Below, in pieces: positions 44,204-51,178 of a DNA stretch of 64,000 bases. The notes under the pieces are model-generated. The model saw only the letters and a program-made list of their open reading frames with translations, made no database searches and was not told where the DNA came from. Origin of the DNA: Chryseobacterium takakiae. GTDB taxonomy: Bacteria > Bacteroidota > Bacteroidia > Flavobacteriales > Weeksellaceae. Made by a program: the position numbers and the translations under genes. Every line of letters begins with the position of its first letter. Positions within the stretch are counted from its first letter, which is position 1. The stretch lies in assembly GCF_900129385.1 (NCBI RefSeq), contig NZ_FQVO01000010.1:1-64000 (forward strand). The letters are read 5' to 3'.

Positions 44204-45973
44204 TTAGTACATCTGATCAATAATCTCCGCATATTTTTTAAGAACCACATTTCTCTTCACTTTCAGCGTAGGTGTTATTTCTCCGGTGTTGATTTCAAAT
44301 TCTGCGGGCATTAAAGTAAACTTTTTCACTTTTTCAAAGTCGGACAAATGTTCCTGAAGTTCTTTAATTTTCTGTTTATAGAAATCGTTTACCGTTTTGT
44401 TCTTCACTGTCTCTTCCCAATTTGTAAACGGAATATTATTTTTTTTAAGATAATCCTTCAGAAATTCAAAATTAGGAACAATAAGCGCTGAAGCGAATTG
44501 TCTTCCTTCCGCGATCATGACGATCTGCTGGATGAAATTATTATTGGTAAGAAGATTTTCAATCTGCTGTGGAGCAATATATTTTCCGTTTGATGTTTTC
44601 ATAAGGTCTTTCAGGCGATCGGTGATGATAAGATTTCCCTTTTCATCGATCTTTCCGGCATCACCGGTTTTAAACCATCCGTCTTCCGTGAACACTTTTC
44701 GGGTATCTTCCGGATTGTTGTAATAGCCTTTCATAATTCCGTTTCCTCTGGCCTGGATTTCATCCTGATCTCCGATACGGATTTCCACACCGGGAAGCGG
44801 TTTTCCGCTGGTTCCGTGCTCAAAATGAGTGAAAGGGAAAAGCGTAAGAGTTGCAGTAGTTTCCGTCAGTCCATATCCTACGGTAACGTGAATTCCTACC
44901 GATTCAAAAAAACGGGTTACTTCGGGAGATAATGAAGCTCCGCCACAAGGCAAGAACCAGAGCCTTCCTCCCATTTTGTCTTTAATTTTGCTGAAGACTA
45001 AGGTATCTGCAAGTGACTGCTTTATTTTTAAACCGAACGGAATTGATTTTTCGTTTCTTGTTAATTCGGCAGTCTCCCACCCTGTTTTTACGGCCCAGTT
45101 GAAGATTTTTTTCTTGAGCGAAGAACCTTCTTCTGCCTTTTCCAGCACGCCTGCGTAGATTTTCTGGAAAAACCTCGGAACAGCACACATCATTGTAGGT
45201 TTAACCTCTTCCAGCGTGTTCGCAATATTTTTAGGGTCTTCTAGAAAATACACTCTTGCACCACCGTACAGACAAAGAAGGCTCCAGCTGCGTTCAAAAA
45301 CATGGCTTAAAGGCAGAAATGCCAGAGAAAGCTCTTCTTCGAAATTTTTAAATTTAAAAAACTCAAAATGGGCATCAAAAGCTTTGATGAAATTACCGTG
45401 GGTCAGCATTACTCCTTTTGGCGTACCGGTGGTTCCGGAAGTATAAATCAATGTGGCAACATCATCATTTTCTTTTGGACTGAATTCTCCTTCTGAAGCT
45501 GATTTTGCAATGAAATCTTCCAAATAAAAACTGCTGAATTCTTTTTTGATCCACACTGCTTTTTTGGAAACAATAATCGTTTCGAGGCTGCATTCTTTTT
45601 TCTGCAGAATTTCAAGGCAGGCATCATACTGCGCCTGGTCTCCTACCAGAATAATTTTTGCTCCGGAATCTTTAATGATGTATTCTGCCTGTTCTGCATT
45701 ATTGGTTGAATAAATGGGTACGGTGACCGCACCTAAAGACATCGCCGCAAGATCAAAGATCATCCATTCCGAAGAATTATCAGAATAGATGGAAACTTTA
45801 TCGTTTTCCTTGATTCCCGCTTCTTTCAGAGCATTGGCTGTTTTAAAAACAATTTCCGAGAATTTCTTCCAGCTCAGCTCTTTCCATCCTTCATTCTTCT
45901 TTTTAAATCCAATGGCTGGTTTTAAGGGATGTTTCTCTATATTTTTTTGAATGATTGCCTCCGCAAGATTCAT
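44204..45973 (-). CDS. Long-chain acyl-CoA synthetase (AMP-forming)
   Basis: The 589-residue adenylate-forming enzyme has the P-loop YTSGTTGTPKGVMLTHGN, the VGYGLTETTA motif and the hinge DGWFKTGDAGKIDEKGNL with ITDRLKDLMKTSNGKYIAPQ. It activates fatty acids to acyl-CoA. Its start overlaps the stop of the epimerase gene by 4 bases (45970-45973), showing coupling. It lies 43 bases before mvaD. Confidence 0.93.
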   Translation of the reverse strand: MNLAEAIIQKNIEKHPLKPAIGFKKKNEGWKELSWKKFSEIVFKTANALKEAGIKENDKVSIYSDNSSEWMIFDLAAMSLGAVTVPIYSTNNAEQAEYIIKDSGAKIILVGDQAQYDACLEILQKKECSLETIIVSKKAVWIKKEFSSFYLEDFIAKSASEGEFSPKENDDVATLIYTSGTTGTPKGVMLTHGNFIKAFDAHFEFFKFKNFEEELSLAFLPLSHVFERSWSLLCLYGGARVYFLEDPKNIANTLEEVKPTMMCAVPRFFQKIYAGVLEKAEEGSSLKKKIFNWAVKTGWETAELTRNEKSIPFGLKIKQSLADTLVFSKIKDKMGGRLWFLPCGGASLSPEVTRFFESVGIHVTVGYGLTETTATLTLFPFTHFEHGTSGKPLPGVEIRIGDQDEIQARGNGIMKGYYNNPEDTRKVFTEDGWFKTGDAGKIDEKGNLIITDRLKDLMKTSNGKYIAPQQIENLLTNNNFIQQIVMIAEGRQFASALIVPNFEFLKDYLKKNNIPFTNWEETVKNKTVNDFYKQKIKELQEHLSDFEKVKKFTLMPAEFEINTGEITPTLKVKRNVVLKKYAEIIDQMY

Positions 45974-46983
45974 TGTTTTGCCTTTTTATCGTTAATATAA
46001 TTTTTAAGATGAAAATCTATGGTTTCTTCCAACGGGATAAATGTATAATTTAGTCTTTCCTTTACTTTTTTATTGGATATGATTTTCATTCGGGAAATCG
46101 CTTCTACATTTGATTTTGTTACCATTTTGAGCTGTGGAATAAGCCATCCGAAAAGCATATTCGCCACGATTCCCATATTAAGCTGAAATTTTGTGAGTAC
46201 TTTTGCTTCTTTTAATCCAAGCTCTTTTCTGATCTGCTTTGCCAGTTCGGCATATCTTTTATTTTCAGAAATAATGATAAACCGTTCCCCGAAAATATTT
46301 CTTTCCATGAGTTCAACCGATATTTCCGCAACATCCCTTACGTCTGCATAGCTGGTTCCGCCGGAAAAGGTAAAGCCGTTTTTTTCCATGGTAGGAAATA
46401 CATCGCCGCTGCTCTTGCCCCAGCTTCCGCTTCCGATGATCATTCCCGGGTTTATAATTACGACATTCAGACCTTCCGCAGATGCTCTCCAGACTTCCAT
46501 TTCGGCAAGATGTTTTGAAATGGCATAAGCGGAATGATCCTCTTTAGGATTAAAATCAGAATCTTCGTCAAGCTCGCCGTTTTCATTATCTATATCGAGA
46601 ACAGCAACGGAACTTACGTGTAGAAATTTCTTTACCTCCGAATTTTCGCAGGCATATAGAAGGTTTTGGGTTCCTTTCACGTTGGTATGGTACATTTCTT
46701 TTGCATCATCCGGATTGAAACCGACTTTGGCTGCACAGTGGTATACTTCATCCACGCCTTTCAGCGCATCCTGAATCGACTGAATATCATCAAAATCGAC
46801 ATTTATCCATTCTATCTTATTGAAAAAATCGTCAGGATTTTCCGTATAAAATGAATAGGAATGCTTTACTTCGTCTAAATTGCTTGTCGCTCTCTTAGCA
46901 GCCCGAACGTTTTTTCCTTTTTTAAGAAGCTCCAAAACGATTACCCTGCCTAGAATTCCGGTAGCACCTGTTACAAAAACCAT
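45970..46983 (-). CDS. NAD-dependent epimerase/dehydratase (extended SDR)
   Basis: The 337-residue protein starts with the Rossmann loop VTGATGILGRVIVLELL and has the SDR active-site pair in DHSAYAISKHLAEMEVW (YxxxK), followed by VVIINPGMIIGSG. It resembles dihydroflavonol-reductase/3-beta-HSD type enzymes. Its tight coupling to an acyl-CoA synthetase hints at lipid or sterol-like metabolism, but the substrate is unknown. Confidence 0.88.
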   Translation of the reverse strand: MVFVTGATGILGRVIVLELLKKGKNVRAAKRATSNLDEVKHSYSFYTENPDDFFNKIEWINVDFDDIQSIQDALKGVDEVYHCAAKVGFNPDDAKEMYHTNVKGTQNLLYACENSEVKKFLHVSSVAVLDIDNENGELDEDSDFNPKEDHSAYAISKHLAEMEVWRASAEGLNVVIINPGMIIGSGSWGKSSGDVFPTMEKNGFTFSGGTSYADVRDVAEISVELMERNIFGERFIIISENKRYAELAKQIRKELGLKEAKVLTKFQLNMGIVANMLFGWLIPQLKMVTKSNVEAISRMKIISNKKVKERLNYTFIPLEETIDFHLKNYINDKKAKQ

Positions 46984-47196: not shown

Positions 47197-48201
47197 CTAT
47201 GCCAAAACTTCATTGCTTCTTCTTGGAGCTTTATCGCATAAAATATCGGCAATGCTTTTTGAGATCAGGTTTCCTTCAGTAAGGTTATCCAGCCAGAAAA
47301 ATTCTCCTGCCGCATTGATTTCAATAAAATAATATTCGTCTTCGGGAGAAACAATAATGTCAATTGCGCCATAATCCACATGATACACGTCCAGAAGCTC
47401 CAGCAATTTTGCTTCGACATCAGAAGGAAGCTCCGTAGGAACCCATTTATCAATAAGATTGACCCCGTCTTTTCTCCAGTCTATTTTTGCGGCATCCGAC
47501 TGCTGGGAATCTATTTCAAAAGCGAAAATATCCCTTCCGACAACCGTTACCCGGAGTTCTTTTTTCTTCTCTATTTTTTTCTGAAACTGCATTGGGCAAT
47601 ACAAAAGTGTATCCAACTCTTCCAGTTTGTCTTCATTGACAACATTAGTGAAAACCACACTTTCCACACCATCTTCATAAATGGCAAATCCGGTCTGCAT
47701 TTTAGCCACTACATTCTGATGTTTTATGATAAACTGTTTTGCTTCTTCGGGATTGTTGGTAATGCAGGTCTCCGGAATTTTAAGTCCGATTTTATCTGCA
47801 ATTTTGAGCTGCTCTTCTTTGCTGTCCAGTCTTCTGTAAACACTTGGTTTTCCAAGCGAATAGACATCAACAGATTCTAAAAACCCGAACAGGGTATTTC
47901 TTATTTCTCCCATCGCCGCGCCGTAAAACTTCTCGTCGATTTCCTCTCTCAGGCCCCGTCCCATATTATAAGCACGTCTGTACCAAACTGCCGAAATATC
48001 ATCCAGATGGTGTCTTTTATCATGAGTTTCAAGAACGGTGGTCCATTTTCCATCCTGGAATGTGGAAGATAGTTTATTGGTTAAGGGATATTCATCTACA
48101 TTAAAGCGAATTACTTCGCATCCGTTCTTATCAATATATTCGGTTACTTTTTCAATTGAAAAATTATCTCCGGTATGGGTAATTATTAAAATTTTATTCA
48201 T
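47197..48201 (-). CDS. ATP-grasp graspetide ligase (MvdC/MvdD family), second enzyme
   Basis: The 334-residue protein begins NKILIITHTGDNFSIEKV, typical of the MvdC/MvdD peptide-macrocyclising ligases. It has the ATP-grasp landmarks LKIPETCITNNPEEA, VVAKMQTGF, and the metal-binding end YYFIEINAAGEFFWLDNLTEG. The end FFWLDNLT is closer to what I remember of MvdC (amide-forming) than MvdD, though this is a weak assignment. Its start overlaps the previous ligase gene by 8 bases, so both are made together. The substrates are the four precursors upstream. Confidence 0.88.
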   Translation of the reverse strand: MNKILIITHTGDNFSIEKVTEYIDKNGCEVIRFNVDEYPLTNKLSSTFQDGKWTTVLETHDKRHHLDDISAVWYRRAYNMGRGLREEIDEKFYGAAMGEIRNTLFGFLESVDVYSLGKPSVYRRLDSKEEQLKIADKIGLKIPETCITNNPEEAKQFIIKHQNVVAKMQTGFAIYEDGVESVVFTNVVNEDKLEELDTLLYCPMQFQKKIEKKKELRVTVVGRDIFAFEIDSQQSDAAKIDWRKDGVNLIDKWVPTELPSDVEAKLLELLDVYHVDYGAIDIIVSPEDEYYFIEINAAGEFFWLDNLTEGNLISKSIADILCDKAPRRSNEVLA

Positions 48202-49150
48202 TGGTTTTCATTCTTTTTATAAGATTATCGGCAATTCTTTGTACGATAGGAAAATTAAGATCTTTCTGCAGCATTCCCCACTCTCCCTGCGGATTAACCT
48301 CGAGAAAATAATATCTCCCGTCTTTTCCGCGGATCATGTCTATGGCTCCCATGTAAAGTCCCATTTCTTTCATCATTCCTGTGAGACCTGACTTTATATT
48401 TTCGGGAAGATCATATTCTGACCAGAAGTAGTTTCCTTTTGCAATCCTCCAATCGGTATTTTCGCTGTTATTGATTTTACCGGTGAAGAATTCTCCGTCA
48501 AGATAAATAATCCTCAGCTCATATTCTTTTTCGATGTAAGGCTGAAAGATCATTGGGCAGTATTGGATATCTGCAATATTTTCAAGAGAATCTTCATCAA
48601 TAATTTGGGTTGAAAGAAGATTTTCTCCGCCCATTGATTTTGAAATAACTCCGTGAAGCTTGGCAACCATTTTTCCGCTGCCATAAGTATAAAAAAATGT
48701 AGTAATGGCTTCGGCATCGTTTGAAAAAAGAGTTTTTGGTACAATCAGCCCTTTTTTTTCAGCGATTTTGAGCTGGAGTATTTTATTGCCGTCTATTTTG
48801 TTTTCAATTTCGAAAGGATTAATCCACGGAAGATGTTCCAATGCTGTGAAAAGATTGTAACGCAGGGTGGAATATTCTTTAATAAAGATCTTTTTATACT
48901 CTTCATCCAGTTCTTCGGGAGTTTCAATTCTCCATGATTTCCTGTGCCAGACACTTTTTACGTCTTCAGACTTTAATGTATTTCCAAATTCGTCGATAAG
49001 TTTAAAAGAATTCTGGCTGATGCAGATTTTCTGAGCATGGTTAAGTTTATCAGAGTTCAGTCTGAAATACGGAATATTTTTCGAGGTAAGGTATTCAAAA
49101 AAGAGATCAATATTGTAAAAATCCCGTGAATGTGTAATGCAAAGAATCAT
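48194..49150 (-). CDS. ATP-grasp graspetide ligase (MvdC/MvdD family), first enzyme
   Basis: The 318-residue protein opens MILCITHSRDFYNIDLFFEY and has LIVPKTLFSNDAEAITTFF, KMVAKLHGVISKSMGGEN, and YYFLEVNPQGEWGMLQKD as ATP and Mg ligands. The ending GEWGMLQKDLNFPIVQRIA resembles MvdD, the ester-forming ligase of microviridin, and CdnC of chryseoviridin. It joins Thr/Ser to Asp/Glu side chains using ATP. It lies 90 bases after the last precursor, past a strong hairpin. Confidence 0.9.
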   Translation of the reverse strand: MILCITHSRDFYNIDLFFEYLTSKNIPYFRLNSDKLNHAQKICISQNSFKLIDEFGNTLKSEDVKSVWHRKSWRIETPEELDEEYKKIFIKEYSTLRYNLFTALEHLPWINPFEIENKIDGNKILQLKIAEKKGLIVPKTLFSNDAEAITTFFYTYGSGKMVAKLHGVISKSMGGENLLSTQIIDEDSLENIADIQYCPMIFQPYIEKEYELRIIYLDGEFFTGKINNSENTDWRIAKGNYFWSEYDLPENIKSGLTGMMKEMGLYMGAIDMIRGKDGRYYFLEVNPQGEWGMLQKDLNFPIVQRIADNLIKRMKTNE

Positions 49151-49167: not shown

Positions 49168-49199
49168 AAAAAAGGAAACTTAGAGCGTAAGTTTCCTTT
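49168..49199 (-). terminator. Hairpin between precursors and ligase genes (attenuator)
   Basis: AAAGGAAACTTA (49171-49182) and TAAGTTTCCTTT (49188-49199) form a perfect 12-bp stem around GAGCG. On the minus strand it is followed by a T-rich run. It sits inside the operon, after the four precursor genes and before the ligases, so partial termination would yield many precursors and few enzymes. Confidence 0.8.
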
Positions 49200-49240
49200 T
49201 TATATGATTTTGTTAATGTATTAGATATCAACAATTCCAT

Positions 49241-49462
49241 TTACACAGTCGGAACATCATCGTCACCGTCTGATGGATATTTCATGGTCTGTAATAAGTC
49301 CAGCGTTGGTTTTGTTACCGTATCCGCAGTTTTTGATGTGGTAGCGCTATCTAACCTAATATCCGTAATTTCATTTCCTCCTTTGATTTTCTCAGGATCC
49401 TGAAGTTGCTTTTCAAGGAATGATGCGAAAAAAGGCTTCTTTTTTGAATTTTTATTTTTCAT
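49241..49462 (-). CDS. Graspetide (chryseoviridin-like) precursor 4
   Basis: The 73-residue precursor has the microviridin-type leader KKPFFASFLEKQLQDPE (residues 8-24), which the ligases recognise, and KGG at 27-29, a double-glycine-like site. Three Thr-x4-Asp units follow: TDIRLD (33-38), TSKTAD (42-47) and TKPTLD (50-55). The microviridin core TMKYPSDGDDD is at 59-69. Linkers are two or three residues. This is the precursor closest to the ligase genes. Confidence 0.92.
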   Translation of the reverse strand: MKNKNSKKKPFFASFLEKQLQDPEKIKGGNEITDIRLDSATTSKTADTVTKPTLDLLQTMKYPSDGDDDVPTV

Positions 49463-49499
49463 AATAATTAATTTAAAGGATTAATTCCAAATGCCATTT

Positions 49500-49721
49500 T
49501 TAAATTAAAGTAGCATCTTCATCACCATCTGACGGATATTTCATAGTCTGAGCCAAGTCATAGATCGGCTTTGTTACAATATCGGCAGTCTTTGATGTCG
49601 CAACATTGTCTAATCTTATATCAGTAATCTCACCACCTCCTTTTACTTTCTCCGGGTCCTGAAGCTGTTTTTCAAGGAATGATGCAAAGAAAGGTTTCTT
49701 TTTTGAATTTTTGTTTTTCAT
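49500..49721 (-). CDS. Graspetide (chryseoviridin-like) precursor 3
   Basis: The 73-residue precursor has the same leader, with KGGG at 27-30. Its Thr-x4-Asp units are TDIRLD (33-38), TSKTAD (42-47) and TKPIYD (50-55), followed by TMKYPSDGDED at 59-69. It differs from precursor 4 at about ten positions, mostly in the linkers, the last ring and the tail (ATLI against VPTV), which suggests recent duplication with selection on ring variants. Confidence 0.92.
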   Translation of the reverse strand: MKNKNSKKKPFFASFLEKQLQDPEKVKGGGEITDIRLDNVATSKTADIVTKPIYDLAQTMKYPSDGDEDATLI

Positions 49722-49761
49722 AATAATTAATTTAGAGTTTTAATGTAATGGTTGTTTAGTC

Positions 49762-50004
49762 TTAAAGTGCAGTTGCATCTTCGTCACCATCTGAAGGATA
49801 TTTTAGGGTAACATGATCGCCTCCGGGTTTTGTAACATTATCAACAGTTACTGATGTAACACTGTCTTTCAGCGCTCCGGTTGTACTATCCTGCAATGCA
49901 GATGTAATTGTTCCTGAACCTCCTTTTACAGTTTCGGGGTCTTGGATTTGCTTTTCTAAGAACGAAGCAAAGAACGGTTTCTTTTTTGAATTCTTATTTT
50001 TCAT
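49762..50004 (-). CDS. Graspetide (chryseoviridin-like) precursor 2
   Basis: The 80-residue precursor has the leader KKPFFASFLEKQIQDPE, then VKGGSG. Four Thr-x4-Asp units start at T34, T42, T50 and T58 (TSALQD, TGALKD, TSVTVD, TKPGGD), exactly eight residues apart. The core TLKYPSDGDED starts at T66, the next position in the same period. This fits a run of single-ring macrocycles ending in a bicyclic or tricyclic microviridin core. Confidence 0.92.
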   Translation of the reverse strand: MKNKNSKKKPFFASFLEKQIQDPETVKGGSGTITSALQDSTTGALKDSVTSVTVDNVTKPGGDHVTLKYPSDGDEDATAL

Positions 50005-50041
50005 AACAATTAATTTAGAGTGTTAATTTTCGGTGTTAATT

Positions 50042-50281
50042 CTAAAGTGATATTCCATCTTCATCACTGTCTGAAGGATATTTCATGGAAACTACATCAC
50101 TTCCCGGTTTTGTAATACTATCCAATTGGACAGAAGTTACACTGTCTGTAAGAGCACCAGTTGAGTTATCTGCCAATACAGAAGTGGCAGTTCCGGAACC
50201 TCCTTTAATTGTTTCAGGATCCTGGATTTGCTTTTCTAAGAAAGAAGCAAAGAATGGTTTTTTGTTTTTTTTACCTTCCAT
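50042..50281 (-). CDS. Graspetide (chryseoviridin-like) precursor 1
   Basis: The ATG at 50281 is chosen because it begins the leader MEGKKNKKPFFASF; a longer frame exists. The 79-residue precursor has four Thr-x4-Asp units at T33, T41, T49 and T57 (TSVLAD, TGALTD, TSVQLD, TKPGSD), eight residues apart. The core SMKYPSDSDED starts at S65, with Ser replacing the first Thr. It is the first gene of the operon and probably lies next to the promoter. Confidence 0.92.
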   Translation of the reverse strand: MEGKKNKKPFFASFLEKQIQDPETIKGGSGTATSVLADNSTGALTDSVTSVQLDSITKPGSDVVSMKYPSDSDEDGISL

Positions 50282-50398
50282 GATGTTAATATTTAATGAT
50301 TTAGAATGGTCTAAAAGTATTAAAAAAAAATCACCCAAAGAAGAATAAAATATTTTTTAAGAAAATTTTAACAATTAATAGCTAATAACGAAATTATT

Positions 50399-51178
50399 TT
50401 AATTAATATGTAAAAATTCTTTAACAACATTAGCAAAATCAACAGGATTCTCTGCCTGAACCCAATGTCCTGCATTTTTTATGGTAACAAAGTCTGCCTT
50501 TGGAAACTGCTGCCTGATCGCAAAATGATCCTGTGGAAGAATGTAATTTGATTGAGCTCCGGCAATGAATAAAGCCGGCCCGTCAAAAACTCCGAATTTT
50601 ATTGCATTGGATACAAATTCATTATATTTCTCGGACAAAGTTTTCAGATTAAATCTCCAGTTTAACTTTTTATGATCGTCCCAGTATAAATTTTTTGTCA
50701 GGAATTGAATCGTAGATTTTTCAGGAATATACTGATTAAGCACTGCCTCTACCTCATTTCTTGAAGAAACCGTATTAAAATCCACAGTTTCCAGTGCTTT
50801 AATAATTCCCTGATGATGTGGCGGATATGCTTTTGGTGAGATATCAACCACAATAAGGCGTTCCACTTTTTCGGGAAACTTTATCGCAAACTGCATCACT
50901 GCTTTTCCACCCAGCGAATGTCCCAGAATATGAGCTTTAGCCATTCCATAATGTTCCATGTATTGTAAAATATCTTCCGCCAGATCATCATGAGACATAT
51001 TTTCCGAATGAAAGCTTCTTCCGTGATTACGAAGATCAATAAGATGTACCGGAAGGTATTCTCCCATATCTTTACCGAAAGCCCCCCAGTTATCAAGCAT
51101 TCCGAATAAACCGTGAAATACCAGAAGTGGTGTTTGTGAAAGATTTTCACCAAATATTTTTGAATTTAAAATTTCCAT
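50399..51178 (-). CDS. Alpha/beta hydrolase (YbfF-like esterase)
   Basis: The 259-residue protein has the oxyanion-loop pattern VFHGLFGMLDNWG, the nucleophile elbow GHSLGGKAVMQ and the late His in NAGHWVQAENP, the usual triad. YbfF-type enzymes hydrolyse acyl-CoA or ester substrates. It lies 13 bases after pdxJ and 117 bases before the first graspetide precursor. It is not obviously part of that cluster. Confidence 0.9.
   Translation of the reverse strand: MEILNSKIFGENLSQTPLLVFHGLFGMLDNWGAFGKDMGEYLPVHLIDLRNHGRSFHSENMSHDDLAEDILQYMEHYGMAKAHILGHSLGGKAVMQFAIKFPEKVERLIVVDISPKAYPPHHQGIIKALETVDFNTVSSRNEVEAVLNQYIPEKSTIQFLTKNLYWDDHKKLNWRFNLKTLSEKYNEFVSNAIKFGVFDGPALFIAGAQSNYILPQDHFAIRQQFPKADFVTIKNAGHWVQAENPVDFANVVKEFLHIN

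Follow-up and report, generated by a model that had tools for sequence, protein, structure and literature searches.

The locus on the reverse strand of the 64,000-nt stretch analysed (the window) is, with high confidence, a chryseoviridin-type multicore graspetide cluster of the microviridin group, in which CdnC- and CdnB-like enzymes would close the predicted rings. The initial annotation had matched its precursors to chryseoviridin, and this assignment is upheld by a ligase 86% identical to CdnC, a CdnB-like partner and the flanking genes published for such loci, as well as by four precursors that pass the microviridin/marinostatin model and together hold the same ring total as those of Chryseobacterium gregarium. 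The cluster is a sound but ordinary addition to a described kind, with the layout of the characterised C. gregarium cluster. It adds natural ring-loop sequences to the family and confirms Thr-x4-Asp as the unit, successive units mostly lying 8 or 9 residues apart.

Precursor peptides and their ring units

Four genes on the reverse strand encode the precursors A1 (79 aa, 50042..50281), A2 (80 aa, 49762..50004), A3 (73 aa, 49500..49721) and A4 (73 aa, 49241..49462), which have a PFFASFLEKQ leader in common and a KYPSD core at their ends. All four score above the curated cut-off (26 bits) of NF033738 microvirid_RiPP, the microviridin/marinostatin precursor model, at 66.0, 68.7, 71.2 and 70.5 bits for A1, A2, A3 and A4, respectively, and are matched also by Pfam Inhibitor_I10. 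A search of the PDB with the precursor sequence returned chance matches only. The C-terminal motif given for chryseoviridin, TxxxxDxxxTxKxPSDxD[DE] (PMC8939145), was found in 4/4 precursors; the gap ahead of the core measures 2 or 3 residues, and A1 has Ser in place of Thr. The same source agrees on the graspetide family and its extra rings.

Besides the core, each precursor carries 3 to 4 N-terminal T-x4-D units. In A1 the leader and a GG motif are followed by four single-ring units (TSVLAD, TGALTD, TSVQLD and TKPGSD; 50096..50185) with a period of 8 and by the microviridin-like core SMKYPSDSDED (50060..50089), the region reading TSVLADNS-TGALTDSV-TSVQLDSI-TKPGSDVV-SMKYPSDSDED. This core opens with Ser where Thr would stand, and by homology to microviridin its predicted linkages are the S1-D7 and S6-D9 esters and a K3-E10 amide. 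A2 has the same arrangement of four units (TSALQD, TGALKD, TSVTVD and TKPGGD; 49816..49905) with a period of 8, followed by the core TLKYPSDGDED (49780..49809), and reads TSALQDST-TGALKDSV-TSVTVDNV-TKPGGDHV-TLKYPSDGDED. Three units each were found in A3 (TDIRLD, TSKTAD and TKPIYD; 49557..49625) and A4 (TDIRLD, TSKTAD and TKPTLD; 49298..49366), with a Thr-to-Thr spacing of 9, 8, 9 in both. Their cores are TMKYPSDGDED (49518..49547) and TMKYPSDGDDD (49259..49288), respectively, the lactam acceptor of the latter being Asp.

The measured spacing bears out what the initial annotation had described for A1 and A2, namely four Thr-x4-Asp units 8 residues apart and a microviridin core that continues this period, and its count of three units in A3 and A4 and total of 14 single rings and four cores agree with the sequences. 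The eight-residue period that it had extended to all four precursors holds exactly for A1 and A2 only, and a single period across the set is ruled out by the 9, 8, 9 spacing of A3 and A4. When the residues between the GG motif and the core were permuted for each precursor, comparison of the T-x4-D count with chance gave p = 0.00013, 0.0003, 0.002 and 0.02 for A1, A2, A3 and A4, respectively.

Upstream of A1 (window positions 50282-50400) there is an AT-rich stretch, TTGTTAAAATTTTCTTAAAA and then TTTTTTTAATACTTTAG, which is conserved across relatives and is possibly the promoter region.

ATP-grasp ligases and neighbouring genes

Both ligase genes lie downstream of the precursors on the reverse strand, and their reading frames overlap by 8 bases. 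The one adjoining the precursors (48194..49150) encodes a CdnB-like ATP-grasp ligase of 318 aa, of the MvdC/MdnB type, whose closest PDB match is AMdnB (7M4S, E 1.1e-59) and which scores 406 bits against the MvdC equivalog TIGR04185, slightly under the cut-off of 425. The second (47197..48201) encodes a protein of 334 aa of the MvdD/MdnC type, which we assign to the CdnC-type dual-function ligases: it matches C. gregarium CdnC, the structure of which is solved (PDB 7MGV, E 8.8e-201), and its score against the MvdD equivalog TIGR04184, 480.9 bits, is slightly over the cut-off of 475. The CdnC-like ligase is predicted to make the single-ring esters and the core esters, and the CdnB-like ligase the Lys-Glu/Asp amide. 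In 2021, Zhao and colleagues reportedly found CdnC to install four rings of five or six residues as well as a microviridin-like core. A third, distant ATP-grasp relative with 28% identity to CdnB is encoded in the same genome (G000:C24:303415-304020).

The cluster is flanked by genes for an alpha/beta hydrolase (50399..51178) and an NAD-dependent epimerase (45970..46983), both on the reverse strand; Makarova et al. 2022 (PMC8939145) used these two neighbours for chryseoviridin loci. Neither a C39 exporter nor a protease was found within the cluster locus, and no tRNAs within the window. At other sites in the genome there are two Peptidase_C39 proteins (G000:C6:21-386 and G000:C20:62416-62778), possible exporters of GG-leader peptides.

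Comparison with known clusters

The cdn cluster of C. gregarium DSM 19109 (locus L013), whose CdnC matches 7MGV without mismatch over 333 residues, likewise comprises four precursors with GG leaders, CdnB and CdnC. It also matches the window in its 14 single-ring units plus four cores when Ser donors are counted as well, and has the same hairpin before CdnB and one precursor with a four-unit, period-8 array and core identical in layout to A1 and A2. The window locus differs in its ring loop sequences, in its set of precursors (two with four rings, two with three) and in having no CdnA3-type precursor; C. gregarium CdnA3, the experimentally characterised one, is of another sequence type and has a long C-terminal tail. 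In Chryseobacterium taeanense (locus L005), where CdnC is 95% identical to that of the window and the first precursor is nearly identical to A1, a CdnA3-like precursor stands in the place of the second 4-ring precursor.

Cyanobacterial microviridin (mdn/mvd) clusters share with the window a TxKYPSDxDE-type core, a PFFARFLE-like leader and two paralogous ATP-grasp ligases; unlike them, the window precursors place single-ring arrays before the core. Several modifiable units per precursor also occur in the multicore microviridin AMdnA, yet its repeat is a whole microviridin core (PMC5934393), whereas that of the window is one small ring.

Conservation of the ring units across the genus

CdnC was matched at E <= 1e-20 in 149/173 genomes of the genus. 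A few of these are weak hits on other ATP-grasp ligases, so that genuine cdn loci number somewhat fewer than 149; CdnC-like ligases are still present in most of the genus. The scan of genome contigs gave 80 loci with CdnC relatives, and, the window included, 80 loci had recognisable precursors, 193 in total. Our parser assigned two Thr units to 37 of these precursors, three to 93, four to 62 and none to 1, with a unit spacing of 8 in 416 cases and of 9 in 165. The array of four units 8 apart that runs into the core was seen in 25/193 precursors, including two in the window and one in C. gregarium. Pro is third in the unit (T-x-P) in 371/574 ring units across the 80 loci, which suggests a turn preference inside the ring. 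Three precursors (L069:4310-4528, L051:4745-4957 and L052:4762-4974) contain a degenerated ring unit, that of L069 having lost both Thr and Asp.

For the substitution counts we used 132 non-independent, gapless pairs of 78-95% DNA identity, in which the second sequence was free to lose ring residues. Ring Thr had changed at 11/414 sites (2.7%), each time to Ser, and ring Asp at 2/414 (0.5%), compared with 13-37% at loop positions and 7.2% in the leader. At the codon level, by contrast, 51% of the Thr and 30% of the Asp codons in these pairs had changed. This pattern indicates that the ring Thr and Asp are kept by purifying selection, and it is a stronger test of the T-x4-D units than residue permutation. 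From pairs required to have identical ring parses, we obtained dN/dS of about 0.06 for the leader and about 0.22 for the loops; for Thr and Asp themselves such estimates are partly circular, as is the zero entropy there, since matching parses leave both residues unchanged by construction. The loop value gives, on average, no sign of positive selection. At the DNA level the units are identical at 5-13 of 24 positions, and a recent 24-bp tandem duplication of units is thus unsupported.

These data bear on whether the arrays are cyclised at all. Were cyclisation limited to the C-terminal core, with the Thr-x4-Asp repeats forming a linear spacer, one would have to account for ring Thr and Asp that hardly change amid variable loops, for Ser as the sole replacement of Thr, and for the close identity of the window ligase to a CdnC reported to install single rings; we consider this very improbable. 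Even less probable are bonds that join neighbouring units in a hairpin topology, as in plesiocin and thuringinin. Such topologies occur in other graspetides (PMC8939145) and the regular spacing would suit repeated hairpins equally well, but the ligases are of the MvdC/MvdD and not the plesiocin type, and the unit number steps singly from 2 to 4, which favours self-contained units. Decay or silencing of the locus can be practically dismissed, as all six ORFs are open and synonymous change dominates across relatives in both leader and loops, and we found no support for it.

Hairpin between precursors and ligases

The 90-base gap between A4 and the CdnB-like gene folds at -19.1 kcal/mol (z = -4.66) and contains a terminator-like hairpin (49168..49201, reverse strand) with a 14-bp stem, a 5-base loop and a U-run. 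A hairpin before CdnB was present in 80/80 loci, vs. 1/112 gaps between precursors. A pattern search for the exact inner stem gave one occurrence in the genome of the window and matches in 74/98 genomes of the genus, nearly always as a single copy and, where coordinates were compared, about 1 kb upstream of cdnC. Outer stem pairs exchange A-T for G-C (pair 6: 50 A-T, 24 G-C), whereas inner pairs hardly vary.

The hairpin is likely a partial terminator that holds the precursor in excess over the ligase, and thus a candidate attenuator; it may instead be a conserved protein-binding site. No known RNA family was matched in Rfam at the gathering threshold. The hairpin is not described in PMC8939145, and our search on RiPP read-through terminators, with limited coverage of the subscription literature, was empty. 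As a genus-wide, cluster-specific element, it is a small testable extra of the 80-locus comparison.

Predicted maturation of the precursors

While genes, gene order, homology and conservation are read directly from the sequences, the maturation steps (CdnC esters, CdnB amide and GG cleavage) we infer by analogy with chryseoviridin and microviridin, ring closure being suggested in addition by homology and conservation. The PFFASFLEKQ leader of the four precursors would recruit both ATP-grasp ligases. CdnC would turn each Thr-x4-Asp into its own six-residue omega-ester ring and form both core esters at the C terminus, while CdnB would add the Lys-Glu/Asp amide. With all rings closed, A1 and A2 are expected to lose 7 waters each, A3 and A4 6 each. 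A protease or exporter whose gene lies outside the locus presumably cuts off the leader at the GG motif. The products would be beaded cyclic peptides, probably serine protease inhibitors. A more speculative and rather doubtful idea is that each precursor gives one beaded, multi-headed inhibitor, with separate rings engaging different proteases and the hairpin keeping the precursor in excess. If true, one operon would deploy 14 single-ring and four caged warheads.

Core lactam partners

Lys-3 and the acidic residue at position 10 of the core are both kept in 177/182 distinct precursors and both lost in the other 5. Fisher's test of the joint loss gave p = 6e-10, a value that is overstated, as the five precursors may descend from one event. 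Their joint loss fits a Lys-Glu/Asp amide, as would be expected if the two residues are bonded. We found no description of precursors without both lactam partners in the literature searched. Natural cores of this kind would be expected to need CdnC, not CdnB. The five (L012:3862-4077, L014:4014-4253, L016:3910-4125, L017:4252-4491 and L020:3869-4084) have Arg where the lactam Lys would stand and Ala/Ser at the acidic position, which makes the amide impossible.
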